Below are positions 22,505-35,068 of a stretch of 46,938 nucleotides of DNA, one piece after another. This DNA comes from Candidatus Faecimonas gallistercoris (GTDB lineage: Bacteria; Bacillota_I; Bacilli_A; RF39; UBA660): assembly GCA_018712565.1 (NCBI GenBank), contig DVGU01000008.1, positions 1 to 46,938 of the forward strand. Reading direction: 5' to 3'. The notes beneath the pieces were generated by a model. That model worked only from the letters and a program-made list of their open reading frames with translations, had not been told where the DNA came from and did not search any database. Both the position numbers and the translations under genes were made by a program. Numbering within the stretch: position 1 is the first letter of the stretch; each line of letters begins with the position of its first letter.

Positions 22505-22541
22505 AAAAATCCTCTAATTTTAATTTAGAGGATTTTTCATT
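22505..22541. terminator. Bidirectional terminator between tmk and gspE
   Basis: Perfect 13-bp stem AAAAATCCTCTAA/TTAGAGGATTTTT (22505-22517, 22525-22537), loop TTTTAAT. T-rich in both senses; it lies between two convergent genes. Confidence 0.9.
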
Positions 22542-24262
22542 TATTGACTTGGTAGAACACTTATTGCTTGTGAAACCATTTGTTCAGTTGCTGGTTGTTG
22601 CTCTGCTTTATTAATAATGGTTGGAATAATTGAAGTGGCTTGTTTTTTTTGATTGACTGGTGATTGTGTTTGTTCTGTTGCTGGTTTTTTTGTGGTGGAT
22701 ATTATAGGAATAATCGAAGGTTGAGAAGTGTCAATCTTAGTAATGGTAGGGTTACTGAAAGGGGTTGGTTGTTGTTCTTGTTTGATTGCTGAGGTGATTT
22801 CTGGGGTGTTTTTTTGATTTTCAACTGTGTTTATTTTCTCTAGTGTATTGATTGGTTTGTCTGTTGTTGTTGTTTTCATGGTTGGTTGTGTAGATTCATT
22901 TTGAATAGTCGTTGGAATATTTGTAGGGGTTGCTTTATTTAATGGTACTATTTCTAACTCTTGTTGTGCATTTTCTTCCTGTTCTTTCATTTCTTCTAGT
23001 TTTTCTTGTTCTTCCTTAGCTTTTTCTTTTGCCTTTATTTTTTCAGCAACATCATTTTCAAAGAAATCTTCAGCATCTTCTATTTCTATAACACGTAATA
23101 CTTCTTCGAAGCTTGTACTTCCATCGACTACTTTTCCTAAAGCATCTTGTAACATTGTAATTACTTTATCACTATATACTAATTTTGATAGCTCATCTTT
23201 ACTTATATTTTCATTATTTAATGCATTTCGCATTTCATCATCTAATTCTAGTACTTCTTGTATAGCGACACGTCCTTTATATCCTTTACGGCAGGCATCA
23301 CAACCATCATGGTTAGCATCCCATACTCTATCTATATCTTTTTTTAAGTATTTTTTAAATACCTTTTTTTCAAATTTAGTTGTTCTTCTTTTGACACGAC
23401 ACTTAGTACATATTTTTTTTGCTAGTCTTTGTGAGATGATACCGGTTAGGGCAGTAGATAATAAGTAACGTTCTACGTTCATATCTAGTAGACGTTCTAC
23501 TGTTGATAATGTATTATTGGTATGGATTGTTGATAAAACTAAGTGTCCAGTAATTGCGGCACGAACGGCAATTTGCGCAGTTTCACTATCACGAATCTCT
23601 CCGATTAGAATAACATTAGGGTCTTGACGTAGGATAGAACGAAGTGCTGCGGCAAAGGTCATACCGATTTCGGCATTTACTTGTACTTGATTCATACCTT
23701 CAATATTCATTTCTATAGGATCTTCTACTGTGATAATGTTAGTTTCTTCTTTATTTAATGTTTGTAAAACAGAGTATACAGTGGTTGATTTACCAGATCC
23801 TGTTGCTCCAGTGATTAGAATAATTCCATTAGGCACTTGAATCATACGTTTTAATCTGGCTAAGTTTGATTCGTTAAATCCTAGACTATCTAATCCTTGC
23901 AAACTTCTGGAATAATCTAGAATACGAATAACTATCTTTTCTCCTTCATTTAATGGAAGACATGAAACACGCATATCTAAATAAGTACCACCGAAATTAC
24001 CTTTGATGGCTCCATCTTGAGGAAGACGAGATTCTGTAATGTTCATATTTGCTAGTAATTTTAGTCTGGTAGTAAGATTTCTTTCATACGTTTTTGGTAT
24101 ATATGTAAAATTTTGTAAATCACCATCGATACGAAAACGAACCATCATGCCATCTTCTCTAGGATCAAAGTGTATATCAGAAGCACCTGATTTAGCAGCT
24201 GATATAATTATATAGTCTGCAATCTGGGTAATTGGTGTCTTCGTAAAGTCAAATTTTATCAT
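22541..24262 (-). CDS. gspE: GspE/PilB/ComGA-type assembly ATPase with long C-terminal tail
   Basis: Cytoplasmic hexameric ATPase that drives assembly of type IV pili or competence pseudopili. It lacks the MshEN domain and begins directly with the N2 domain (ASDIHFDPREDGMMVRFRIDG), as in ComGA. Walker A TGATGSGKST (151-160), Asp box ITVEDPIE, Walker B LIGEIRDSETA (219-229), His box STIHTNN, and zinc tetracysteine C285xxC288...C321xxC324 are all intact. The family core ends near residue 405. The last 170 residues are unusual: a charged coiled coil (EKIKAKEKAKEEQEKLEEMKE) and a Thr/Pro/Gln-rich low-complexity tail. It is divergent from the pseudopilin genes and lies about 8.5 kb from gspF and the prepilin peptidase. 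Ribosome site AAAGGGG. Confidence 0.93.
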   Translation of the reverse strand: MIKFDFTKTPITQIADYIIISAAKSGASDIHFDPREDGMMVRFRIDGDLQNFTYIPKTYERNLTTRLKLLANMNITESRLPQDGAIKGNFGGTYLDMRVSCLPLNEGEKIVIRILDYSRSLQGLDSLGFNESNLARLKRMIQVPNGIILITGATGSGKSTTVYSVLQTLNKEETNIITVEDPIEMNIEGMNQVQVNAEIGMTFAAALRSILRQDPNVILIGEIRDSETAQIAVRAAITGHLVLSTIHTNNTLSTVERLLDMNVERYLLSTALTGIISQRLAKKICTKCRVKRRTTKFEKKVFKKYLKKDIDRVWDANHDGCDACRKGYKGRVAIQEVLELDDEMRNALNNENISKDELSKLVYSDKVITMLQDALGKVVDGSTSFEEVLRVIEIEDAEDFFENDVAEKIKAKEKAKEEQEKLEEMKEQEENAQQELEIVPLNKATPTNIPTTIQNESTQPTMKTTTTDKPINTLEKINTVENQKNTPEITSAIKQEQQPTPFSNPTITKIDTSQPSIIPIISTTKKPATEQTQSPVNQKKQATSIIPTIINKAEQQPATEQMVSQAISVLPSQ

Positions 24263-24356
24263 AGTGTCAACCCCTTTTGTTTTTTACTATGGTATTTTAT
24301 CTTATTTTATTATATAATATTTTTAGTATAATAGCAAGAAAGTAGATGGGAAAAAG

Positions 24357-24899
24357 ATGAAAAAAAATAATAAAGGTTTTGTTTTGGTTGAAACATTGGT
24401 TGTTACAGTTTTTGTTATGGCTGTATTTTCTGTTATTTATGTTAATTTTTATCCATTAGTAGGTGAGTATGAAAGAAGAGAGTTTTATGACGATGTAGAT
24501 AGTAAATATGGAGCTTATTGGATTAAGAGATTTATTCAAAGTAGTAGTTATGATTTTTATCGTTCTGGGGGACTGAATGCTAATATTACTAGTAATGGAT
24601 ATGCTAATTTTCAATGTAGTGAGTTAGGGAGCGAGGATAGGAATTTCTGTAGTGAGATGTGGAGTAGGCTAGGTATAAATAAAGTCGTGGTTACTACTTA
24701 TAATATACAGACATTTAAGGATAAAATACAAAGTAATTCTACTGGTTTTACTGAAAATTTTGTCTCTTATATTGAGTATTTACCAAATTTTGAAGTTGCT
24801 TCTGAAAATGGTGCTAAGTTTAGAGTTTTAGTTGAATTCAAACAAACTTCCGAAGATGAAGAATATTATTCTTATGCAAATATGGAGGTGGTTAAATGA
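24357..24899 (+). CDS. Pseudopilin with type III signal (first)
   Basis: 180 residues. MKKNNKG|FVLVETLVVTVFVMAVFSVIYVNF is a classical prepilin leader: short basic peptide, Gly, cleavage before Phe, Glu at position +5 and a hydrophobic helix. The prepilin peptidase at 34307 would cut after the Gly. The mature part (about 170 residues) has a Cys pair (FQCSELGSEDRNFCSE) that could form a disulfide. It is too large and divergent to be recognised as ComGC, so it is probably a minor pilin like ComGD/F. TATAAT 24327-24332 is the likely -10; the weak ribosome site GGGAAAAAG precedes ATG 24357. It overlaps the next pseudopilin gene by four bases. Confidence 0.85.
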   Translation: MKKNNKGFVLVETLVVTVFVMAVFSVIYVNFYPLVGEYERREFYDDVDSKYGAYWIKRFIQSSSYDFYRSGGLNANITSNGYANFQCSELGSEDRNFCSEMWSRLGINKVVVTTYNIQTFKDKIQSNSTGFTENFVSYIEYLPNFEVASENGAKFRVLVEFKQTSEDEEYYSYANMEVVK

Positions 24900-25516
24900 T
24901 ACGAAAATTAAATAATAAAGGAATGACAGCTGTAGAGATTTTAGTTACTTTTGTTATTATTATTGTTATTGTTGTTTCTATGTATAATGGAATTTTGGAT
25001 TTAAAAAATAAAGAGACTATATCTTCTTATAAATTGAGTTTAGTTACTTATAATAATTTGTTAACAAAGGATATTCAAGATGATTTGATTAAGATTGGCC
25101 TATCTACAGTACAAACCAGTGCTTTAGATGGAAACTCTGGTTATCGTATTACTATGGCTTTGAAAGATGGTACGAAGCGAATTTTAGAAATTAAGCAGAT
25201 TTTTGGATGTAGTGCTGTAGATTCTAGTGATGTTAGTACTTTATGTACGCCTTATAATATTCCTGAGAATCGAAGTGATGAATTTTCTATTAGTTATGGT
25301 CCTGAAGGTGATTTAACTGAGTATCCACTTCCTGATTTAGGGCATGAAGAGATTAATAATTCTAGTGGTGGTACGAGAACGATTTATAGTCTTAGAATTA
25401 ATGCAGTAGAGGTTTCTACGGCAAATCAAGTTTTTTCTCTTCATATTATTATGTCACATCCAGATTTAGGAGATAGATATTCTATTGATATTGTTTCACC
25501 AATTAATTATACATAA
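24896..25516 (+). CDS. Pseudopilin with type III signal (second)
   Basis: 206 residues. The leader MIRKLNNKG|MTAVEILVTFVIIIVIVVSMYNGIL has Gly before the cut, Glu at +5 and the long hydrophobic helix of prepilins. The Cys pair FGCSAVDSSDVSTLCTP may form a disulfide. Overlaps the previous gene by ATGA, so both are made together and probably form the tip or initiating complex of a pseudopilus. The 3' end overlaps the convergent ylbJ gene by 21 bases, so no separate terminator fits between the two. No other pilin-like gene is visible in the window. Confidence 0.83.
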   Translation: MIRKLNNKGMTAVEILVTFVIIIVIVVSMYNGILDLKNKETISSYKLSLVTYNNLLTKDIQDDLIKIGLSTVQTSALDGNSGYRITMALKDGTKRILEIKQIFGCSAVDSSDVSTLCTPYNIPENRSDEFSISYGPEGDLTEYPLPDLGHEEINNSSGGTRTIYSLRINAVEVSTANQVFSLHIIMSHPDLGDRYSIDIVSPINYT

Positions 25517-26386
25517 AAATAAAATACTGGCTAATATTATTTGATATATCCTTCCTATAAGGAAATTTTTATAATTTATTTTAGTATCAGCGATGATACT
25601 TTTTGTTTGCATATGAACAGAAATTCCACCTAATGCAAAGAAAAAGATAATGATTAAACTTCGTATTATAGGATTGGAAATTAGACTGGTTAAGAAGACG
25701 CCGTTTGTTAAGTCAAAGATTCCATTTATTAATATGTATTCTATTAGTGGTAATTTTATATATTGATTTATAATAGTAATTATTAAATAAAAGAAAATAG
25801 ATGTTCCATAAATTAGTAAGATGGTTTTTATAGATGAAAATATTGCTTTTGGTAGGATTTTTGGAAAGGAAGGAGTATTTTCTATAAATACTAGGGGATT
25901 ATCTTTTTCTTTCGGTCTTTTTATGAAAGCAATGATTAAATTAGCTAGTATTAAACTAATAAGTATTGTAGTTGCGTATCGTTTCGATGGAAAAAGAACA
26001 GATACAGACCCTAAAATAAATAAGGGATTGGGAAAATGAGTAAAGCTGATTAAATAGTTTGCATCTTTTTCAGTGATTAAGTTTTTTTCTAATAAATCTT
26101 TTGTATATTTACTACCACTAGGGAATCCACTAATTAGGCTCATAATTACTACATAAAAACAGGAACCATTTTTATGTAGTAGATTACTTAGTTTTTCTAC
26201 GGCATTATATTCAATTAATAAAGTTGATAGGGTAAAGAATAAAAAACTTGCTGGAAATAGTTTTTCTATAAATAGTTTTGTATATCTTAGAATTTGGTTT
26301 GTTATTAGGGTGGAGTTTATTAGATATAATATACTTAGACATATTAATACAACTAGAATCAAGTTACTTTTTTTATTTTTTTTCAT
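25496..26386 (-). CDS. ylbJ: YlbJ-like polytopic membrane protein
   Basis: 296 residues with about eight membrane helices. FPASFLFFTLSTLLIEY, then MSLISGFPSGSKYTKDLLEKNLITEKDANYLISFTHFPNPLFILGSVSVLF, closely follow the Bacillus sporulation membrane protein YlbJ ('SGYPIGAKLTARLRKEKQLSKVEAERLVSFTNTSNPLFMFGAVSV'), a member of the nucleoside-recognition/Gate fold. FFFALGGISVHMQTKSIIADTKINYKNFL is the conserved second half. Function: gate-like transport is suspected, substrate unknown; the sporulation link comes from Bacillus. It is divergent from ylbL; in Bacillus ylbJ and ylbL are also neighbours, which supports both identifications. Ribosome site GAGGAAAT. Confidence 0.82.
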   Translation of the reverse strand: MKKNKKSNLILVVLICLSILYLINSTLITNQILRYTKLFIEKLFPASFLFFTLSTLLIEYNAVEKLSNLLHKNGSCFYVVIMSLISGFPSGSKYTKDLLEKNLITEKDANYLISFTHFPNPLFILGSVSVLFPSKRYATTILISLILANLIIAFIKRPKEKDNPLVFIENTPSFPKILPKAIFSSIKTILLIYGTSIFFYLIITIINQYIKLPLIEYILINGIFDLTNGVFLTSLISNPIIRSLIIIFFFALGGISVHMQTKSIIADTKINYKNFLIGRIYQIILASILFLCIINW

Positions 26387-26404
26387 ATTTCCTCATTTCT
26401 TTGT

Positions 26405-26410
26405 TATAAT
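26405..26410 (+). promoter_or_regulatory. -10 box of ylbL
   Basis: TATAAT 20 bases before the ATG 26430, lying in the 43-bp gap between divergent ylbJ and ylbL. Confidence 0.5.
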
Positions 26411-26429
26411 GTATCATGGAGGTAATTGC

Positions 26430-27440
26430 ATGCTTAAGAAATTTTATGAGAAAATTTTGAATTTTATTAAAAGTGAATATAAATATATTTTATTTTTGAT
26501 TGCTTTTTGGGTAGTTTGTTCTTGGCCCGTTAATTATTATATTATTATTGGTGGGGGAATTAGTGATATTAGTAAACGGGTAGTTGTAGAAGATGGATAT
26601 CAGAGTAAGGGTAGTTTTAATTTATCTTATGTTTCTGAATTAAAAGGAACAACGCTTAGTTATTTACTTAGTTATGTTATGCCTAATTGGGAAAAGGTTA
26701 GTATGGATGATTATAAATATACAACGGATGAGGATTATGACGATATTGAATTCCGTAGTGAGCTAGATTTAGAGTATTCTAATAGTAATGCTATTTATTA
26801 TGCGTATAAATTGGCTAATAAAAAATGTAATATTATTGATACTAAAGTTTATGTTATTGTGACTCTGGATGGGTATGATAATCCTCTTGAGGTAGGAGAT
26901 CAACTTATAAGTATTAATGGTAAGGACTGTGATAATTTAGAAGAATTTCAAAATGAGTTGCAACAAATAGAGGATAGTAAAGTTACTGTTACAGTGTTAC
27001 GGGATAAAAAGCGTGTCGATCTTGATTGTAGGTTATATCTAGAAGATGGACGTAAGCTTTTAGGGGTTGCGTTACAATCTGTTAGTAGTTATGATACAGA
27101 TCCTAAGGTAGAATTTCAGTTTGAGCGTAATGAGTCCGGACCTTCTGCTGGTCTTGTTACAACGCTTTCTATTTATGATCAGTTGATAAAAAAAGATTTA
27201 ACGAAGAAAATGAATATTGCTGGAACTGGTACTATTGAGTCTGATGGTACTATTGGAGAGATTGGGGAGGTTGAATATAAATTATTAGGGGCTGTTGATG
27301 GAGGAGCTGATGTCTTTTTAGTTCCAGCGGGTGATAATTATAAAACTTGTTTAAAAGTAAAAAAGGAAAAGAATTTAGATATTAAATTGATTCCTGTTAA
27401 AACTATTTATGATGCTGTAGAAAAATTAGAAAAAATGTAG
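26430..27440 (+). CDS. ylbL: YlbL/SepM-type PDZ and Lon-like serine protease
   Basis: Membrane-anchored protease, 336 residues. The track's start (26310) runs back into ylbJ; ATG 26430 with GGAGG upstream is the proper start. One N-terminal helix (about 14-34), a PDZ domain (about 140-215, PLEVGDQLISINGKDCDNLEEF), and a Lon/S16 domain with the catalytic Ser-Lys dyad (RNESGPSAGLVTTL and GEVEYKLLGA). AGTGTIESDGTIGEIG is the conserved S16 strand. In streptococci SepM matures a competence peptide; in Bacillus YlbL has roles in DNA-damage recovery. Target here unknown. It is followed 18 bases later by a hotdog thioesterase gene. Confidence 0.9.
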   Translation: MLKKFYEKILNFIKSEYKYILFLIAFWVVCSWPVNYYIIIGGGISDISKRVVVEDGYQSKGSFNLSYVSELKGTTLSYLLSYVMPNWEKVSMDDYKYTTDEDYDDIEFRSELDLEYSNSNAIYYAYKLANKKCNIIDTKVYVIVTLDGYDNPLEVGDQLISINGKDCDNLEEFQNELQQIEDSKVTVTVLRDKKRVDLDCRLYLEDGRKLLGVALQSVSSYDTDPKVEFQFERNESGPSAGLVTTLSIYDQLIKKDLTKKMNIAGTGTIESDGTIGEIGEVEYKLLGAVDGGADVFLVPAGDNYKTCLKVKKEKNLDIKLIPVKTIYDAVEKLEKM

Positions 27441-27458
27441 TTAGGAAGGTGTATAATT

Positions 27459-27863
27459 ATGAGTGATAAAGAATTATTAGATTTTGGATTGAAGTATATG
27501 AGTCAAGTAGAAGGTTTTATTAAAAATAATCATTATAAACTAGTTGATTTAAAAGAACATTATTGTGTAATGAAAGCAGAGGTTCGTGATGAAAGTTTAA
27601 ATCCATATGGAATGGTACATGGTGGTTTTTTGTTTGGACTTGCTGATACAGCTGCTGGTATTGCGGCTCGTTCTACTGGTAGAAAAGCTGTTACATTAAA
27701 TGCTAATATTGAATATTTACATGCTGCTTATGGAAGTTATATTAAAGCGGTTGCTAAGGCGATAAAGATTGGAAAAACTATCTCTGTTTATGAAGTTTTA
27801 CTTTATGATGATAAAGAGGTAATGGTAGCAAAAGCGTCAGTTGATTATTTCTTTATTGATTAA
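27459..27863 (+). CDS. PaaI-family hotdog thioesterase
   Basis: 134 residues, a single hotdog fold. NPYGMVHGGFLFGLADTAAGIAA is the PaaI/YdiI motif, with HGG and the acidic residue (Asp in GLAD) that polarise the thioester. Predicted acyl-CoA thioesterase acting on hydroxyphenyl or similar small acyl-CoA; the substrate is not determinable. Ribosome site AGGAAGG. Only 18 bases downstream of ylbL, so co-transcribed. A hairpin plus T run ends the operon. Confidence 0.88.
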   Translation: MSDKELLDFGLKYMSQVEGFIKNNHYKLVDLKEHYCVMKAEVRDESLNPYGMVHGGFLFGLADTAAGIAARSTGRKAVTLNANIEYLHAAYGSYIKAVAKAIKIGKTISVYEVLLYDDKEVMVAKASVDYFFID

Positions 27864-27884
27864 AGATATGGATGTTAATTTATA

Positions 27885-27911
27885 AGAAATTATCAATATT
27901 TCTTTTTTTTT
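27885..27911 (+). terminator. ylbL-thioesterase terminator
   Basis: Stem AGAAAT/ATTTCT (27885-27890, 27898-27903), loop TATCAAT, followed by eight T. Confidence 0.7.
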
Positions 27912-27950
27912 AAATTTTTTTTTGATATAGTTATACTAGAGGTGAGTTAG

Positions 27951-28634
27951 ATGAAGAAGAAAATATTATTTATTCTTGGTATTGTAATTATAGCTTTTAT
28001 AGTTTTTTTAGGTTATAGAAGTTACTTGGTTTATTTTAAATACAAGGTTGTTGTGGATGAATATGTCCCTACTAAGGGAACCTTAGGACTTTCTTCTACT
28101 GAGGAATGTGATTTCCATTTTAAAGGTCTTTCTATTTGTTTACCCGATGGATTTACTAAGGATTTAGATCGGAAAGATAATGATTTTGATGTTTTATACT
28201 CTAATGGTGAAGTAGATATTGCTATGTCATTGATGAAGAATGATTTGAGTAGTAGTATAGAGGATATTGATAAACATATAGATGCAAAAAAAATAATGAA
28301 GAAGTATGATATTTCTACTATGACGGATGTTTTACATTATTTAGATAAGCATGGTAAAGATAAGTTTACGATTTTTTCTAAGCTTTCGGATATTCAATTT
28401 TATTATGTTGCTAGAACATTAGTAGATTTGTTAGTACCTACAGGAGATGTTTATTATTTAGATGGTGATGTAGGTGAAGGTTATATGATAAAACAGAAGA
28501 ATAATTATTTTGTTTATTTATATAATGGTAATAATAAATATGTTATATCTTTCTATCAAGAACAGTTGGATGATGATTATTTTAATGATGATAATGTTTA
28601 TAAAATACTTAGTAGTATACAATTTAGGGACTAG
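27951..28634 (+). CDS. Unknown membrane-anchored extracytoplasmic protein
   Basis: 227 residues, not recognised. MKKKILFILGIVIIAFIVFLGY is a signal anchor without lipobox; the rest is outside. Two cysteines close together (EECDFHFKGLSICLP) could form a disulfide next to the membrane. The domain is mixed alpha/beta with an acidic character and ends YVISFYQEQLDDDYFNDDNVYKILSSIQFRD. Own promoter: TATACT at 27932-27937; ribosome site GAGGTGAG. Terminator overlaps the stop codon. It lies directly before the two-component control region but is separated from it by that terminator, so a joint function is only possible, not shown. Confidence 0.7.
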   Translation: MKKKILFILGIVIIAFIVFLGYRSYLVYFKYKVVVDEYVPTKGTLGLSSTEECDFHFKGLSICLPDGFTKDLDRKDNDFDVLYSNGEVDIAMSLMKNDLSSSIEDIDKHIDAKKIMKKYDISTMTDVLHYLDKHGKDKFTIFSKLSDIQFYYVARTLVDLLVPTGDVYYLDGDVGEGYMIKQKNNYFVYLYNGNNKYVISFYQEQLDDDYFNDDNVYKILSSIQFRD

Positions 28635-28649
28635 TTTTAGTCTTTTTTT
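28629..28649 (+). terminator. Intrinsic terminator
   Basis: Stem GACTA/TAGTC (28629-28633, 28638-28642) with loop GTTT and seven T. Confidence 0.8.
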
Positions 28650-28650
28650 A

Positions 28651-28860
28651 TTCCCATAATTTCCCGTTTTTTTATCAAGTAGTTTTCATAATTGTTTTAT
28701 ATATTTATAGCAAGAAAGGAGGAGAAAAGATAAAAATTCTTTATCGGAAATTATATTCCCATAATTTCCCATAATTATTTAATAATTCTTACACATTTAT
28801 GCGATATAGTTAAATTGTCGAAAGGAGGAAGATAGATAGAAGTTAGTTAAATAGAATGAA
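28651..28860 (+). repeat. Two tandem promoter-like modules upstream of the two-component genes
   Basis: Two modules with a period of 105 bases start at 28651 and 28756. Each begins with the identical TTCCCATAATTTCCC (two TTCCC exactly 10 bases apart), has a TATATT (28700) or TATAGT (28804) box about 35 bases further on, and reaches GAAAGGAGGA at 28714 or 28820 (offset 63/64). The other bases are not conserved. Ten-base direct repeats are typical of OmpR-type regulator sites, and such a regulator is encoded directly downstream. No canonical start codon follows either ribosome-site-like motif at a good distance. Confidence 0.6.
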
Positions 28861-28911
28861 TGATTATTATACCAATTTTTTTATATAGATGAAAGGAGGA
28901 GGATATTTATA

Positions 28912-28962
28912 GTGGAGTCAATATATTTCTTATTAAAGGAGGGGATGCTCATAAGGTTATAG
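28912..28962 (+). CDS. Possible leader peptide of the two-component operon
   Basis: GTG 28912 follows GAAAGGAGGAGG (28891-28902) by nine bases and opens a 16-codon frame ending at TAG 28960, ending 43 bases before the response-regulator start. A second AAAGGAGG lies inside it at 28934. A short leader peptide is possible, but there is nothing to test coding potential. Confidence 0.3.
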   Translation: MESIYFLLKEGMLIRL

Positions 28963-29005
28963 ATGAATTCAGGGAATAGTGTTATACTATTGGTAGGTGG
29001 TTAAT

Positions 29006-29668
29006 ATGTATACAATTTGTTTTGTTGAAGATGAAGTTGACTTATCAAACCTTATTCAGACCTATTTAGAACGTTCTGGTTATCAGGTTATTGCTTTTAC
29101 AAAAGGTCGCGATGCACTTAATTATATAGGTGGAAAAGTTGATTTGTGGATACTGGATATTATGTTAGGAGATGATGTTAATGGCTACGATATAATCAAA
29201 GCTATCCGGGAGCAAGATGAAGATGTACCTGTTATTTTTACTTCCGCACGAGATCAAGACTTAGATAAGATTTTAGGTTTAGAGCTTGGTAGTGATGATT
29301 ATATTACAAAACCATATTCTAGTAAGGAATTAGTATTACGTGTTAATAAAATTTTAAAAAGAGTATATAAAGATACTCAAACACAATATCTTTGTTATGA
29401 TTGTTATAAAATTGACGCAGAAAAGCGAATTGTATTAGGCAATCGTGATAAAGAATTAAAACTTACAACGTTAGAGTTTGACTTGTTGTTACTTCTTTTA
29501 AAAAATAAAAATAAATGTTTTTCTAGGGAAGAAATATTGGATGCTGTTTGGGGAAAAGATTATTTTGGAACTGATCGAGTAGTGGATGATTTGGTTCGAA
29601 GACTTAGAAAAAAGATGCCTAAACTTAATGTCAATGCTGTTTATGGTTATGGGTATCGTTTATCATGA
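29006..29668 (+). CDS. OmpR/PhoB-family response regulator
   Basis: 220 residues from ATG 29006 (the track's GTG 28997 sits in the ribosome site TAGGTGG). Receiver domain 1-115: acidic pair E8/D9, phospho-acceptor D51 in LWILDIML, S80 and K102 in ITKPYSS. DNA-binding winged helix about 125-220 (LTTLEFDLLLLLLKNKNKCFSREEILDAVWG, VVDDLVRRLRKKM, VYGYGYRLS). It probably binds the 10-base phased TTCCC repeats just upstream, controlling itself. The histidine kinase gene overlaps by four bases. A TATACT at 28983-28988 is the nearest -10. Confidence 0.92.
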   Translation: MYTICFVEDEVDLSNLIQTYLERSGYQVIAFTKGRDALNYIGGKVDLWILDIMLGDDVNGYDIIKAIREQDEDVPVIFTSARDQDLDKILGLELGSDDYITKPYSSKELVLRVNKILKRVYKDTQTQYLCYDCYKIDAEKRIVLGNRDKELKLTTLEFDLLLLLLKNKNKCFSREEILDAVWGKDYFGTDRVVDDLVRRLRKKMPKLNVNAVYGYGYRLS

Positions 29669-30939
29669 GATTACGTAAGACAAAACTTAGTCATCAGTTA
29701 CTATTTTTAATCGGTTTGGCTTTTACAATCTTATTTATTTCCATGGGTGTTATTCTTCCAAAAATGTTGATTCCAGTAGCAGAAAAAAATATATATACCT
29801 ATTTAAGCGAACCTTTAAAATTTGTAGGTGATAATCGTATTGATGATTCATTACTTAATACGGAAATTGCATATCTTTATATCGTTGATGATACTATGAT
29901 GACCAGTGAAAATATTCAACAAGTGATTCACATCAAAGATACTAATAAACTATTATCCTATATTAAAGATGATTATGGAAAGTTTCACTATAATCATGAT
30001 ACTTACTACTACTATACAATTACAAAAGATGACATTACAAAAGTTGCTATCTCAAATGATAGTTATATCAACGAAACAAAAGAGACAATTTTAAGCACTA
30101 TCTTTCCAATAGTTTTGAGTACCTGTTTATTAATTGGTCTTTTACTTGTCATTTGGTCTTCTTTTATTGTTAAAAGAATCGAAAAACTAAAAGATAAGAT
30201 TGATCATATTGATAATACAGATTATAATCATAATATTAATTTTGAAATTGATGATGAAATTAAATCACTTGCTTTAGCAATCGAAGATATGAGAATCTCT
30301 CTAATTAATCAAGAAGAATACCGTAATCAAATGTATCAAAATATATCACATGATTTTAAGACACCTCTCACCGTTATAAAATCATATATTGAAGCTGTTG
30401 AAGATAAGGTCGAAGATAGTAATACTGCTCTTCGAGTTATAAAACAGCAAACTGAAAAGTTAGAAAATAAAGTACACTCACTTCTTTACTTGAATAAACT
30501 TGATTATTTAAAAAATACTAAAAATATTGAAAATAAATTAGTCGATATGACGAAAATTATCCAAATTGAAGTTGATAAATTTAAGTTTCATAGAAAAGAA
30601 ATTAATTTTGTTGTAGATGTTGACAAAAAATCTAAATACTATGGTACTATGGAACATTGGGAAACCATTTTTGATAATTTACTTTCGAATTTTATGCGAT
30701 ATGCTAATACTACTATAAAAATTACTGCAAAGCAAAATAAAATAATTTTATATAATGATGGAGAACACATCGATGATGATTTTCTTGAGGGAATTTTTAC
30801 TCCGTTCCGGAAGGGAATCAAAGGAGAGTTTGGATTGGGTCTTTCGATTGTTAAAAAGACTTTAAATATTATGAATTATGATATTACTATTAAAAATGAA
30901 AAAAAAGGTGTATCCTTTATTATTAAGAGAAGCTCTTAA
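29665..30939 (+). CDS. Sensor histidine kinase
   Basis: 424 residues, two membrane helices (about 14-33 and 146-168) bracketing an extracellular sensor of about 110 residues, then HAMP-like linker, H-box YQNISHDFKTPLTVIKS with the phospho-His, N-box NLLSNFMRYANT, G1 LYNDGEHI, F-box IFTPFRKG and G2 GEFGLGLSIV. It resembles the SaeS/PhoR-like group, signal unknown. The start overlaps the regulator by ATGA. Codons look different from neighbours: more A and C (ATC, CTC, TCA, AAC), whereas most + genes here are G/T-rich, hinting at acquisition or inversion. Ends with a strong terminator. Confidence 0.92.
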   Translation: MRLRKTKLSHQLLFLIGLAFTILFISMGVILPKMLIPVAEKNIYTYLSEPLKFVGDNRIDDSLLNTEIAYLYIVDDTMMTSENIQQVIHIKDTNKLLSYIKDDYGKFHYNHDTYYYYTITKDDITKVAISNDSYINETKETILSTIFPIVLSTCLLIGLLLVIWSSFIVKRIEKLKDKIDHIDNTDYNHNINFEIDDEIKSLALAIEDMRISLINQEEYRNQMYQNISHDFKTPLTVIKSYIEAVEDKVEDSNTALRVIKQQTEKLENKVHSLLYLNKLDYLKNTKNIENKLVDMTKIIQIEVDKFKFHRKEINFVVDVDKKSKYYGTMEHWETIFDNLLSNFMRYANTTIKITAKQNKIILYNDGEHIDDDFLEGIFTPFRKGIKGEFGLGLSIVKKTLNIMNYDITIKNEKKGVSFIIKRSS

Positions 30940-30958
30940 GTATAGAGTTTCTTTTTTT
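30929..30958 (+). terminator. Two-component operon terminator
   Basis: Stem GAAGCTCT/AGAGTTTC (30929-30936, 30944-30951, one G-U), loop TAAGTAT, then seven T. Confidence 0.8.
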
Positions 30959-30983
30959 GGTTATTCTAATTATGGGTGGTTTT

Positions 30984-31757
30984 ATGCGTGCTTTAATTAC
31001 AGGGGCTAGTTCTGGTATTGGTTATCAAGTGGGGAAGAAGCTTGCTTTGGAGGGACACTTGGTTTATATGACTTGTAGAAGTGTGAGGGAGGTTTTTCAT
31101 TTACGAAAAAAATTAGAAAAAGAGGGAGTTCATGCTATTTGTTTTAAGATGGATTTAACTTCTGATGATATTAATATTGTCGATCATTTAGATATTGATT
31201 GTTTATTTAATCATGCTGGTTGTGGTACTGCCGGTAGTATATTGTCGATGGATGAGAATAGTTTGAGAGATATTTATGAGGTTAATCTTTTTAGATCTTT
31301 TTTGTTATTGAAGAAAGTTTATCAACATATGGTAGATAAAAAGATTACTGGTAAAATTTTTGTTACTTCTTCTTTAGCTTCTATGTACCCATTTCCTTTT
31401 TTAGGTGTTTATACATCTAGTAAGGCTGCGATATCGCAGCTTGTGAAAACATTGCAACGAGAGAGTAGAGTTTTCGGTAATTCTGTTTGTTTTTGTTTGG
31501 TCGAGCCTGGTGCTTATGCAACAGGATTTAATCAAGCAATGATTGATAAAGTAGAGTTATATCAAGAGTTGAATGATAAGTTTTTATCTATACATAATTA
31601 TCAAAGAAAACTTTTTTCTTTATTAGAATCTAGAAATATTGATAAAATAGCTAATAAAATAGTTAAGGAAATGGTAAAAGAAAAACCGAAGAAGATTCTT
31701 CGGATTCCTTGGGTACAAGGTATTTTTCTAAAGATACATGCTTTCTTTTTCTTGTAG
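30984..31757 (+). CDS. Short-chain dehydrogenase/reductase
   Basis: 257 residues from ATG 30984 (MRALITG; GGGTGG four bases upstream); TTG 30957 and ATG 30972 are alternatives. Classical SDR motifs: cofactor TGASSGIG (6-13), FNHAG in place of NNAG, catalytic Ser in VTSSLAS, and YTSSK for Tyr/Lys. The Arg in MTCRSVRE after beta-2 suggests NADP(H). A C-terminal hydrophobic/basic end (IPWVQGIFLKIHAFFFL) may touch the membrane, as in SDRs acting on lipids. Substrate unknown. Bacillus uses a FabG-like reductase (YmfI) in EF-P modification, but nothing here ties this gene to it. Confidence 0.85.
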   Translation: MRALITGASSGIGYQVGKKLALEGHLVYMTCRSVREVFHLRKKLEKEGVHAICFKMDLTSDDINIVDHLDIDCLFNHAGCGTAGSILSMDENSLRDIYEVNLFRSFLLLKKVYQHMVDKKITGKIFVTSSLASMYPFPFLGVYTSSKAAISQLVKTLQRESRVFGNSVCFCLVEPGAYATGFNQAMIDKVELYQELNDKFLSIHNYQRKLFSLLESRNIDKIANKIVKEMVKEKPKKILRIPWVQGIFLKIHAFFFL

Positions 31758-31763
31758 CTTGAC

Positions 31764-31805
31764 AATAAAAAAGAAGAATGGTTCTTTAGTTCTTTTTATT
31801 TAGAC
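31764..31805. terminator. Convergent terminator between SDR and hypothetical gene
   Basis: AATAAAAAAGAA/TTCTTTTTATT stem (31764-31775, 31790-31800) with one bulge and an inner GAA/TTC pairing; A/U-rich on both sides. Confidence 0.55.
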
Positions 31806-32154
31806 GATGTTTTAAATAAGTTTTTATTTTGCTTTTTGTTGAGGCTATTTGGTGAGTTTGTTTGAATTGTTTAAATTGCTCATCAGTTAAAAATATTGTT
31901 GATAGACTGTGTTCATCATAATATGGTATTTTTTCTCCTTCTTTAGGATGGTTGTTTAACCAATCTACTGCTTCTTCATGAGTATTAGGAGCTTCGCCAG
32001 TATCAAATCGTATTAATCTACCAGAAAAGTTTTGGTAAAATAAAACATTTTTTTCTATTAGAGTAGGTCTAAATTTACTTTCTACTGTTGCATCTTGTAT
32101 ATTTTCTGCAATGATTTCTAAGTTATTTATGTTTCCTCTGTAACATTTTTTCAT
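31786..32154 (-). CDS. Hypothetical small protein
   Basis: 122 residues starting at the ATG complementary to 32152-32154 (ribosome site AAAGGAGAG in sense orientation); the track's start further up is too long. No signal peptide or membrane segment. Acidic/basic mixed, with NTHEEAVDWLNNHPKEGEKIPYYDEHSLSTIFLTDEQFKQF, and a lysine-rich C-terminus (KSKIKTYLKHRLNKKN). Not recognised. Could be a small cytosolic binding protein. Confidence 0.6.
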   Translation of the reverse strand: MKKCYRGNINNLEIIAENIQDATVESKFRPTLIEKNVLFYQNFSGRLIRFDTGEAPNTHEEAVDWLNNHPKEGEKIPYYDEHSLSTIFLTDEQFKQFKQTHQIASTKSKIKTYLKHRLNKKN

Positions 32155-32225
32155 GTAATCTCTCCTTTGTATGTATATTATATCTAAAAAATAGCAATTT
32201 GTATATAACAAAAATAAAAAAGGTA

Positions 32226-32254
32226 TTGAAAAAGTTTTTTTTATCTGTTATAAT
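32226..32254 (+). promoter_or_regulatory. tRNA-Met promoter
   Basis: TTGAAA (32226-32231), 17-base spacer, TATAAT (32249-32254), 18 bases before the tRNA. Confidence 0.8.
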
Positions 32255-32272
32255 CAATTTGTTATGTGAAAT

Positions 32273-32349
32273 GGCGATGTAGCTCAGCTGGCTAGAGCGT
32301 CTGGTTCATACCCAGAAGGTCGGGGGTTCGATTCCCTCCGTCGCTACCA
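32273..32349 (+). tRNA. tRNA-Met (CAT), elongator type
   Basis: 77 bases with encoded CCA. Acceptor arm GGCGATG/CGTCGCT, D loop AGCTCAGCTGGCTAGAGC, anticodon stem TCTGG/CCAGA with loop TTCATAC (anticodon CAT at the centre), variable loop AGGTC, T arm GGGGGTTCGATTCCCTC. It matches the Bacillus elongator tRNA-Met closely. Initiator Met or the lysidine-modified Ile (CAT) tRNA is less likely from body sequence. Confidence 0.95.
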
Positions 32350-32361
32350 AAATAGCATTTT

Positions 32362-32387
32362 ACTCGGAATTTAGTTCCGAGTTTTTT
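32362..32387 (+). terminator. tRNA-Met terminator
   Basis: Stem ACTCGGAA/TTCCGAGT (32362-32369, 32375-32382) with loop TTTAG and six T. Confidence 0.9.
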
Positions 32388-32700
32388 ATATATAAAAGAT
32401 TGGAGAGTTTGATGGGGTGGTTATGTTGGAAGTAGTTGTTGCTGTTGTTTGTTGTTGTGGTGCTTTTTCTTGTGGTGTTTTGGTATCACGGATGGAATCA
32501 GCAATTTTAAATATTGTTTTGGCGTTATTCATAATAGGTTTTATTTGATATACAATGGGAATTGCTTGATTGATAACTCCTAGAGTTTTCTGGGTTCCTT
32601 CTAATAAGCTTGACCATTTTACAGTTTTTATTGCTTGTAGACCTCGAGTTAGTAGACTTGCCTTGGGAGTTAGATTCATTAAATAAGGATTAGGATACAT
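32386..32700 (-). CDS. yqfQ: YqfQ-like (VrrA-type) small protein
   Basis: 104 residues. After MYPNPYLMNLTPKASL, the core WSSLLEGTQKTLGVINQAIPIVYQIKPIMNNAKTIFKIADSI closely follows the YqfQ pattern 'FLxNTQKxLxxxxQxxPxVQQYGPLVKNxPxMWKL'. The C-terminal third (QEKAPQQQTTATTTSNITTPSNSP) is Thr/Gln/Pro-rich and disordered, as in YqfQ/VrrA, where repeats vary. Function unknown. It is divergent from gspF, so the 110-base gap holds promoters for both. Its Thr-rich tail is similar in character to the GspE tail. Confidence 0.6.
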   Translation of the reverse strand: MYPNPYLMNLTPKASLLTRGLQAIKTVKWSSLLEGTQKTLGVINQAIPIVYQIKPIMNNAKTIFKIADSIRDTKTPQEKAPQQQTTATTTSNITTPSNSPIFYI

Positions 32701-32810
32701 ATCATCACCTCTTATTTTAATATATGTAAATTCATTGAAAAAGTTAATTTAATTATTTTCAAAAAAAATATGTTATGTTATACTTAATTAAGAATAGGGA
32801 GTGATGAATA

Positions 32811-34295
32811 GTGGGTATACTATCGAAAGTTGGAAGTGCATTAAAAAAAGACTCTCAAAATTCAAATGCTACAACAGCGGTTGGAGGTAATGTTGCTGCA
32901 GGTCAACCTGTGCCTGATGGTAATAATGTTCTTCCAGCACAAGGGAATGTTGCACCTCCAAAACAAAAAAAATCACTGTTTTCTTTTCAAAAGAAGAAAG
33001 ATAAAAAGACGGATGTCAACTCTGATATGAATGACTTTTCTCCTAAGCCAGGGATACAAAAAAGAGTTGAAAATGCACCAGAGAGACCACTAATTAAGTA
33101 TCGTTACGTAGTTATTAATGCTATGGGTAAAAAGGAAAAGGGAACTTTTGAGGCGGAGAGTGAGTCAGAAGTTAGAAATTTTTTGTTGTCTCAGGATTAT
33201 GAAGTTGTATCTATTACAGTACGAGCAGCTTATGATATAGATATTAATGATCATGCTAAAATGAAGGTTTCTGATTTGTCGTTTTCACTAACTCAGTTAT
33301 CTACGTATATTAAATCTGGTATACCACTTGTTGATGCTGTTAAGATTTTAGCAAAACAAGCTAGTAAGCCAGCATCTAAAAAAGCTTTTCAACGATTAGT
33401 GTATGAATTGTTAAAAGGTGAGAATCTTTCTAATGCAATGTTAAAGCAAGAAACTGTGTTTCCTAAATTATTAGTTAATATGGTAAAAACAGCGGAGATG
33501 ACTGGTGATTTACCTTCTATTTTGGATGATATGGCAGATTATTATACTACAATGGAGAGAACACGTAAACAAATGATTAGTGCTATGACATATCCTTGTG
33601 TTGTATTATCTATTGCTTTTATCGTACTTATTTTTATGCTTACTTATTTAGTTCCACAGTTTGCTAGTATGTTTGAAAGTAATGATGCAGAACTTCCTGC
33701 TATTACACTTGCTGTTTTAGGTGCTAGTAATTTTATTAAAAATAATTATATTGTTCTTATTATAGGAATTATTTTGGTTGTTGGAGGCTTTATTTTCTGT
33801 TTTAAGAAAAATAAAAAATTCCGTACTGCTGTTCAAACATTTTTAATGCATATTCCAGTTTTAAAGAGTATCATTATTTATAATGAGGTTGCTAATTTTA
33901 CAAAGACGTTTGCTTCTCTTTTGAATCATGGAGTTTTTATTACAGATAGTATGGAGATTTTATCTAAGATTACCAATAACGAAGTTTATAAACGTATTAT
34001 TGATAAAACGTTACATAATCTTGGAAAAGGAGATTCTATTTCAGCATCATTCCGTGGAGAATGGGCCTTTCCTGTTGTTGCTTATGAAATGTTAGTTACT
34101 GGTGAATCTACGGGGCAATTAGGTTTGATGATGGAGAAAGTTGCTGAGCACTTTCAAGCTTTGCATAAATCAGTAATTGATCAATTGAAGAGTTTAATGG
34201 AACCATTGATGATTTGTGCCTTGGCGGTAATTGTTGGTATTATCTTATTATCAATTGTTGAGCCTATGTTTAGTATTTATGGACAAATACAGTAA
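32811..34295 (+). CDS. gspF: GspF/PilC-type inner-membrane assembly protein
   Basis: 494 residues, start GTG 32811 with AGGGAG nine bases before; ATG frames nearby are out of frame. The family core begins near residue 90 (KYRYVVINAMGKKEKGTFEAES) and has the duplicated T2SSF domain, LSFSLTQLSTYIKSGIPLVDAV and FTKTFASLLNHGVFITDSM, with three membrane helices; GESTGQLGLMMEKVAEH ends the second. The 90-residue N-terminal extension (NATTAVGGNVAAGQPVPDGNN..., then basic KKKDKKTD) is unusual and disordered. This is the platform on which the GspE-type ATPase acts. The prepilin peptidase gene follows 11 bases later. Confidence 0.93.
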   Translation: MGILSKVGSALKKDSQNSNATTAVGGNVAAGQPVPDGNNVLPAQGNVAPPKQKKSLFSFQKKKDKKTDVNSDMNDFSPKPGIQKRVENAPERPLIKYRYVVINAMGKKEKGTFEAESESEVRNFLLSQDYEVVSITVRAAYDIDINDHAKMKVSDLSFSLTQLSTYIKSGIPLVDAVKILAKQASKPASKKAFQRLVYELLKGENLSNAMLKQETVFPKLLVNMVKTAEMTGDLPSILDDMADYYTTMERTRKQMISAMTYPCVVLSIAFIVLIFMLTYLVPQFASMFESNDAELPAITLAVLGASNFIKNNYIVLIIGIILVVGGFIFCFKKNKKFRTAVQTFLMHIPVLKSIIIYNEVANFTKTFASLLNHGVFITDSMEILSKITNNEVYKRIIDKTLHNLGKGDSISASFRGEWAFPVVAYEMLVTGESTGQLGLMMEKVAEHFQALHKSVIDQLKSLMEPLMICALAVIVGIILLSIVEPMFSIYGQIQ

Positions 34296-34306
34296 GGAGG
34301 ATAATT

Positions 34307-35068
34307 ATGGATATATTATATTTAATTATCTTTTTTATTTTAGGATGCTTTTTTGGAGGATTCTATACAGTTTTGGGAGAGAGATTAGCAACTGAGGATT
34401 ATCATTTTTTTCCTTATCGTTGCAATCATTGTAAACATGCCCTTTCTTTTTTAGATGGGATTCCAATAGTATCTTTTTTGTTTTTGAAAAAAAGGTGTAG
34501 ATATTGTCATCATATTATAGATGTTATGGAACCTCTCATGGAATTTTTTACTGGAATTTTATTTGCTGTTGCTTTTTATAGTTTTGGATTTTCTTATGAG
34601 TTATTAATTGCTTTGGGAATTATTTCATTATTAATTATAGTTACTGTTAGTGATTTAAATTATTTGATTATTCCAGATGAGGTTTTAATTTTCTTTGGTT
34701 TTTATTTTATTGTTGTACAATTTTTTTCTGTTGGAATTGTTAATACTTGTTTTCATGTTTTGACAGGTATCTTCTTATTTCTATTGATGTATTTTATTAT
34801 GTGGTTAGGAGAAAAGATGCTTAAGAAGGAGAGTTTAGGCGGTGGAGATGTTAAAATGATGTTTCTATTTGGTTTAGTATTAGATCCTTTACTTGGTACT
34901 ATAGCAATCTTTTTAGGTAGTATTTTTGCTTTACCTATGTCTTTGTTTTTGCTCTATAAAAATCAAGAAAAAATGATTCCTTTTGGACCTTTTTTACTTA
35001 TTGCCTTTACTTTTTTATATTTTACAAAAATTACACCGGAAATTATTATTTCTTGGTTGAGTTTTTAA
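34307..35068 (+). CDS. pilD: Prepilin peptidase (PilD/ComC type)
   Basis: 253 residues, about eight membrane helices. The N-terminal zinc-binding part has two CxxC pairs (RCNHCKHA and RCRYCHHI). The two catalytic aspartates lie in VTVSDLNYLIIPDE and in SLGGGDVKMMF (GxGDxK). It cleaves prepilin leaders after Gly, as in the two pseudopilins at 24357 and 24896, and methylates the new N-terminus in most relatives. Ribosome site AAGGAGG, 11 bases after gspF, so co-transcribed. No terminator is obvious. Confidence 0.92.
   Translation: MDILYLIIFFILGCFFGGFYTVLGERLATEDYHFFPYRCNHCKHALSFLDGIPIVSFLFLKKRCRYCHHIIDVMEPLMEFFTGILFAVAFYSFGFSYELLIALGIISLLIIVTVSDLNYLIIPDEVLIFFGFYFIVVQFFSVGIVNTCFHVLTGIFLFLLMYFIMWLGEKMLKKESLGGGDVKMMFLFGLVLDPLLGTIAIFLGSIFALPMSLFLLYKNQEKMIPFGPFLLIAFTFLYFTKITPEIIISWLSF

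Follow-up and report, generated by a model that had tools for sequence, protein, structure and literature searches.

A conserved tandem promoter module upstream of a two-component operon in Candidatus Faecimonas gallistercoris and related gut Bacilli

The two-component operon and its leader

The window, that is, the whole stretch of DNA analyzed here, comprises 46,938 nt of Candidatus Faecimonas gallistercoris (GCA_018712565.1, contig DVGU01000008.1, positions 1-46,938, forward strand; GTDB lineage Bacteria; Bacillota_I; Bacilli_A; RF39; UBA660). It harbors the operon of an uncharacterized two-component system, with overlapping genes for a response regulator and a sensor histidine kinase, preceded by a leader. 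The features discussed below are the following.

28651..28665, + strand: box of module 1, an exact match to TTCCCATAATTTCCC (module 32.9 bits, E 3.1e-9, profile R1)
28700..28705, + strand: -10 hexamer TATATT of promoter P1, at +49 from the box start (sequence; conserved spacing)
28714..28723, + strand: first GAAAGGAGGA, Shine-Dalgarno (SD)-like and without a start codon, at the predicted 5' end of the P1 transcript; no ORF follows
28756..28798, + strand: box 2 and its continuation, the four-repeat array TTCCCATAAT TTCCCATAAT TATTTAATAAT TCTTACACATTT, the first two repeats being strong (profile scores, per-column information)
28805..28810, + strand: -10 hexamer TATAGT of promoter P2, at +49 from the box start (TAnnnT at +49 in 76/77 orthologues)
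28820..28829, + strand: second GAAAGGAGGA, beginning near +4 of the P2 transcript as predicted and followed by neither a start codon nor an ORF (sequence; GGA core in orthologues)
28891..28900, + strand: third GAAAGGAGGA, which could serve the 16-codon frame from GTG 28912 (sequence)
28912..28962, + strand: small frame VESIYFLLKEGMLIRL-stop, possibly coding (most of the genus has it at 20-28 codons)
28935..28962, + strand: fourth SD AAAGGAGGGG (AAAGGAGG) and mini-ORF ATG CTC ATA AGG TTA TAG, 28945-28962 (sequence)
28980..28988, + strand: extended -10 TGTTATACT of a regulator-proximal promoter (conserved directly before the regulator)
29006..29668, + strand: OmpR/PhoB-type response regulator, 220 aa (PF00072 6.4e-23, PF00486 1.2e-21)
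29665..30939, + strand: sensor histidine kinase with a small extracytoplasmic domain, 424 aa (PF00512, PF02518)

The regulator had been assigned to the OmpR type by a first-pass annotation, and its Response_reg and Trans_reg_C domains, both above cut-off, make it in fact an OmpR/PhoB-type winged-helix protein. No named subfamily (PhoB, WalR, VanR, others) could be attributed, as the NCBIfam equivalogs considered all stayed well under their cut-offs (181 bits against 270 for the best). Of the two possible start codons, GTG 28997 and ATG 29006, the second appears the better one, since an AGGTGG ribosome-binding site lies at 28995-29000 and the same ATG is found in relatives. The sensor domain of the kinase is predicted to adopt an alpha/beta fold (pLDDT 78); by structure it bears a weak WalK/PhoR-like resemblance, from which no signal was inferred.

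In this genus, the operon is located among type IV pilus/competence-like genes (window 22541-35068), coding for an ATPase, pilin-like and PilC-like proteins and a prepilin peptidase, a neighborhood that is not found in more distant relatives. The gene immediately upstream (27951-28634) encodes a 227-aa membrane-anchored protein with no Pfam or NCBIfam match. Its likely terminator, GACTAGTTTTAGTC followed by a T run at 28629-28650, ends just before box 1; a terminator scan made no call there (too few G-C pairs).

Architecture of the promoter modules

The 15-mer TTCCCATAATTTCCC, not found in the literature searched, occurs exactly at 28651-28665 and 28756-28770, 105 nt apart, and within each copy TTCCC recurs with a 10-base period. 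Each box is followed, 34 nt after its end, by a -10-like hexamer, and GAAAGGAGGA is located at 28714 (+63) and 28820 (+64), the possible regulator starts lying 241 and 250 nt after box 2. The items listed in the first-pass annotation are all found as described. That inventory was, however, incomplete, lacking a third exact GAAAGGAGGA, a fourth SD (AAAGGAGGGG), the extension of box 2 into a 43-bp array of four repeats and the extended -10 element.

The reading of the two boxes as tandem promoter-like modules is borne out by comparison with related genomes. In particular, 39 diverse modules align without gaps over 80 nt, and a TAnnnT hexamer starts exactly at +49 from the box start in 76 of the 77 orthologous main modules. 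The conserved core of this alignment is TCCCATAATTTCCCATA, followed by the weaker ATAATT and CACATTT. Per-column information resolves the conserved columns into four repeats with spacings of 10, 11 and 11, whose consensus reads TTCCCATAAT, TTCCCATAAT, TnTTTnATAAT and TnTTACACAT. As the -10 is fixed at +49, transcription is predicted to start near +61 of the box, which for P2 corresponds to about 28817. On the predicted transcript the array would extend from about -61 to -20, with its strong half at about -61 to -47 and its weak half at about -41 to -20. No recognizable element occupies the -35 position of P1 or P2, where the hexamer is not TTGACA-like; scanning with a promoter consensus gave no more hits than in shuffles, as expected for promoters without a -35.

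Sites for activators of the OmpR/PhoB family, such as the pho boxes, are made of head-to-tail repeats with a period of about one helical turn, several in a row, which cover the position of an absent -35 and keep a constant distance to the -10. The features of such a site are present here, namely direct repeats of 10-11 bp, a fixed phase to the -10 and no -35. In other words, the geometry of the array is that of an OmpR/PhoB-family activator site, matching the domains of the regulator encoded downstream.

The two copies are not equivalent, which corrects the first-pass reading. Box 2 belongs to the conserved strong site (67 bits, E 7.2e-20 with profile R1, against 32.9 bits for module 1), nearly invariant in the genus, whereas most relatives have a degenerate module at box 1, usually GCCCATAATTTTCC-like within the genus. 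Tandem modules are nonetheless found genus-wide at a spacing of about 90-108 nt; one genome has three modules, and further genomes with tandem copies are G071 and G107. Thus the tandem is conserved, and the exact identity of both copies is mostly peculiar to the source genome. A further promoter-like element, TGnTATAnT, lies within 55 nt of the regulator in 77 of 81 orthologues, as compared with 1% of shuffles; its conservation just before the regulator start implies a second, almost leaderless transcript.

Shine-Dalgarno elements of the leader

Compared with the remainder of the loci, the leaders show a 35-fold higher density of strong SD motifs. In the window, six A[AG]AGGAGG octamers occur on both strands of the 46.9 kb, four of them in this leader, and the recurring form GGAGGnnATGnnnATAAG is essentially confined to a single locus in the genus. 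In orthologues, the GGA core of the first SD falls 8-16 nt downstream of the -10, which places it at the very 5' terminus of the predicted RNA; elements 1 and 2 of the window are likewise strong SD sequences near a predicted 5' end with no translation start. Overall, a start codon within reach is lacking for 50 of 153 SD elements, and the others mostly open ORFs of 1-5 codons. In L046, up to six similar tandem SD and mini-ORF units (e.g., AAGGAGGAATGCCTATAAGATAA), spaced by about 80 nt, lie some 50-450 nt upstream of the regulator.

Neither a stable fold of the leader (no better than shuffles, z +1.19) nor an Rfam match besides one tRNA was detected. A search of 38 genomes for the 3' tail of the 16S rRNA returned nothing. 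Two RNase J genes, above the TIGR00649 cut-off, are present in the source genome. The nearest known counterpart is the STAB-SD of cry3A, in which RNase J1 is blocked by a 30S subunit sitting close to the 5' end (PMC4113751; PMC3997798).

Conservation and distribution of the module

Orthologous operons were gathered by searching with the kinase protein, so that the box played no part in their selection, and yielded 82 non-redundant leaders. With a box counted within 350 nt of the regulator at up to two mismatches, 77 of the 82 leaders, which are related to one another and hence not independent, carry it (47 exact, 25 with one mismatch and 5 with two), as opposed to none of 1640 dinucleotide shuffles. 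Absence of the boxes from orthologous operons, the outcome that the first-pass annotation had named as contrary to its reading, was therefore not observed. The box is also kept in a different family (G041, G052), whose regulators are about 46% identical and share the recognition helix DRVVDDLIRRLRKKM. There, the array (L204:3761-3834, L205:3372-3439) has the regulator on one side and, on the other, divergent genes that encode two small membrane proteins, one of them with a thioredoxin domain. The gene neighborhood differs between groups, while box and operon remain together. In other families, with regulators 48-56% identical, the strict box is absent, and within the clade the V/A variation at position 3 of the recognition helix is unrelated to box mismatches.

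A genome-wide search for TTCCCN5TTCCC had been proposed as a means to define a regulon. In the 1.29-Mb source genome the pattern occurs three times, twice in the operon leader and once in antisense orientation inside a large adhesin-like/surface-protein-like coding sequence. When genomes were scanned with profile R2, built on the repeat array alone, the leader array was the only strong site of the source genome (E 2.2e-11) and, likewise, of nearly all relatives with the system (E 1e-6 to 1e-13); the site of G016 is weaker and that of the divergent G023 was found only with R1, weakly. Duplicate modules of the same leader apart, the next-best sites in the scanned genomes had E values of at least 1.6e-3. 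Since no other strong site emerged in any genome, no strict-box regulon exists and the array is essentially a single-locus element. Genomes without the kinase, such as G013 of the same genus, have no box.

A weak second target is tentatively suggested by the promoter of an operon for a MacB/FtsX-like permease and an ATPase in the source genome (contig C28, L199:2313-2381), which reads TTTCAC..TTTCCCAT..TTTCACAAT, TATACT, GAAAGGAGAAATTATG. This promoter of a MacB-like ABC exporter reaches 25-28 bits with R1 in three genomes (G000, G004, G005), its -10 being in register; it is present in some members of the genus, a similar one precedes a related permease in G017, and G008 retains a promoter remnant without the permease. 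With R2 these sites are at chance level (0.01-0.04 per genome), so the exporter is a suggestive target at most.

Probable regulation of the operon and alternative explanations

Some eighty uncultured relatives from the gut have the predicted promoter nearly unchanged ahead of this sensor-regulator operon. The site is conserved before orthologous operons and absent where these are missing, which is the pattern of an autoregulated two-component operon; moreover, the co-encoded regulator is the only tested candidate binder whose distribution matches that of the box. The regulator is probably self-activating, given that the promoter is kept upstream of its own operon and essentially nowhere else, and most likely switches on its own genes through the boxes. 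The analysis shows the sequence elements themselves, their conservation, the fixed spacing, the confinement to a single locus and the co-occurrence with the system; from these we infer binding by the co-encoded regulator, activation rather than repression, the transcription starts and the stabilization of the messenger.

The mechanism that we consider probable as a whole is the following. The boxes would act as the strong half-sites in a promoter module through which the downstream operon regulates itself. The phosphorylated OmpR/PhoB-type regulator would bind the four 10-11-bp repeats head-to-tail as dimers and, standing at about -61 to -20 in place of the missing -35, would bring RNA polymerase to the -10 at its constant +49 position, generating a positive feedback. 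The module would have been duplicated in tandem (P1 and P2; three copies in one relative), adding to a separate, box-free extended -10 promoter beside the regulator gene. Finally, each module would close with a nearly perfect anti-16S sequence, located at the predicted 5' end of the RNA and usually lacking a usable start codon; its likeliest role would be to hold a 30S subunit as a STAB-SD, protecting the inducible messenger against 5'-3' degradation by RNase J.

Other accounts of the boxes have to be weighed against this one. That they are a chance repeat or a recent neutral duplication has next to no probability: the genome is AT-rich and the exact pair exists only in the source genome (one relative, L008, has two near-exact copies), but conservation, spacing and profile scores contradict this explanation, which was rejected because the box is conserved across orthologous operons. 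Binding by MraZ, the regulator of the cell-division cluster, is hardly more credible. E. coli MraZ recognizes TGGGA-N5-TGGGA. The reverse strand of the box, TGGGAAATTATGGGA, also reads TGGGA-N5-TGGGA and mraZ is present in the source genome; given this resemblance, the mraZ promoters of the clade were read. They carry GTGG-N6-GTGG-N6-GTGG instead, clear triple repeats in these Bacilli (L283-L302) that match the Mollicutes MraZ site AAAGTGK N3 (PMC5282649). Moreover, mraZ occurs without the box in G013, G018, G020 and G022, and the box without an mraZ match in G041 (99% complete). MraZ was thus rejected as the binder, its own promoters carrying a different repeat and the two distributions being independent. 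It is improbable, albeit less so, that another response regulator or a repressor controls the operon from outside through the array. Half-sites of OmpR-type proteins do resemble each other, but the array tracks the presence of the operon and sits only there, while a general regulator would have other strong sites and its array would survive loss of the operon. To a similar degree we doubt that the regulator binds the array to repress P1 and P2 in a negative feedback, with basal expression supplied by the extended -10 promoter. The conservation of the latter (77/81) would fit, sites over a -35 can repress, and an autorepressor could occupy -61 to -20; against this, the lack of a recognizable -35 in P1 and P2 and the fixed 49-nt spacing to the -10 are hallmarks of activator-dependent promoters.

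Taken on its own, a function of the SD elements of the leader as STAB-SD-like stabilizers is conceivable and falls somewhat short of an even chance. Rather less likely, they could serve translated leader peptides or minigenes (M-x-I-R/S..., 16-28 codons) coupling expression to translation. An ATG recurs 1-3 nt from GGAGG, with ATAAG 7-8 nt away; a genus frame of 16-28 codons, ending LLKEGMPIRL-stop, is open in most members; and the Onthousia group has a start-stop ATG-TAG, its leaders L067-L079, L103, L110 and L111 showing the first SD followed by ATG-TAG-TAG. Yet several relatives have lost the ATG while GGAGG...ATAAG stays, the 5'-most SDs have no ORF, and variability by codon position in the genus-wide 20-codon frame (9/7/11) gives no clear coding signal. 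More remote still is the idea that the leader constitutes an undescribed RNA control element, in which serial start-less or mini-ORF SDs tied to duplicated promoters load 30S subunits. If this were true, expression of the system would depend on free ribosomes or the translation state in addition to its own phosphorylated regulator.

Significance and comparison with known systems

The sequences point to a real, deeply conserved promoter module of an uncharacterized two-component system, presumably autoregulatory. A candidate operator motif and a promoter layout are now specified for a system of wide occurrence among the uncultured Bacilli of the gut (Onthousia and relatives). With its near-invariant 17-bp core, fixed -10 spacing and single locus, it would represent a clean case of a response regulator having its own promoter as the only strong site. 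In addition, the serial start-less SDs make it possible to ask, in a natural setting, whether autoregulatory promoters have protection of the STAB-SD type built in.

Autoregulation as a principle is known; what is new is the motif, along with the serial layout of promoters and SDs. Like the pho boxes, the array consists of head-to-tail repeats that take the place of a -35, keep a constant distance to the -10 and go with a winged-helix regulator. It differs from them in the half-site TTCCCATAAT, in the strong-strong-weak-weak order, in the confinement of the strict site to one operon per genome with no phosphate genes linked, and in the repetition of whole modules upstream of the regulator's own genes. 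The MraZ box shares the 10-bp-period direct repeats and, on the reverse strand, the E. coli TGGGA-N5-TGGGA; here, however, the box is distributed independently of mraZ, and the mraZ promoters of the clade use GTGG-N6 repeats. As for the cry3A STAB-SD (PMC4113751), RNase J is present here too, but the putative stabilizers form a series of three to four elements, starting with one for each promoter module, and some are followed by mini-ORFs. Finally, the combination of a distal regulated promoter and a proximal basal promoter before regulator-kinase genes recalls autoregulated two-component operons in general, from which this locus is set apart by its two to three tandem box/-10/SD units and by its being the only strong target found.
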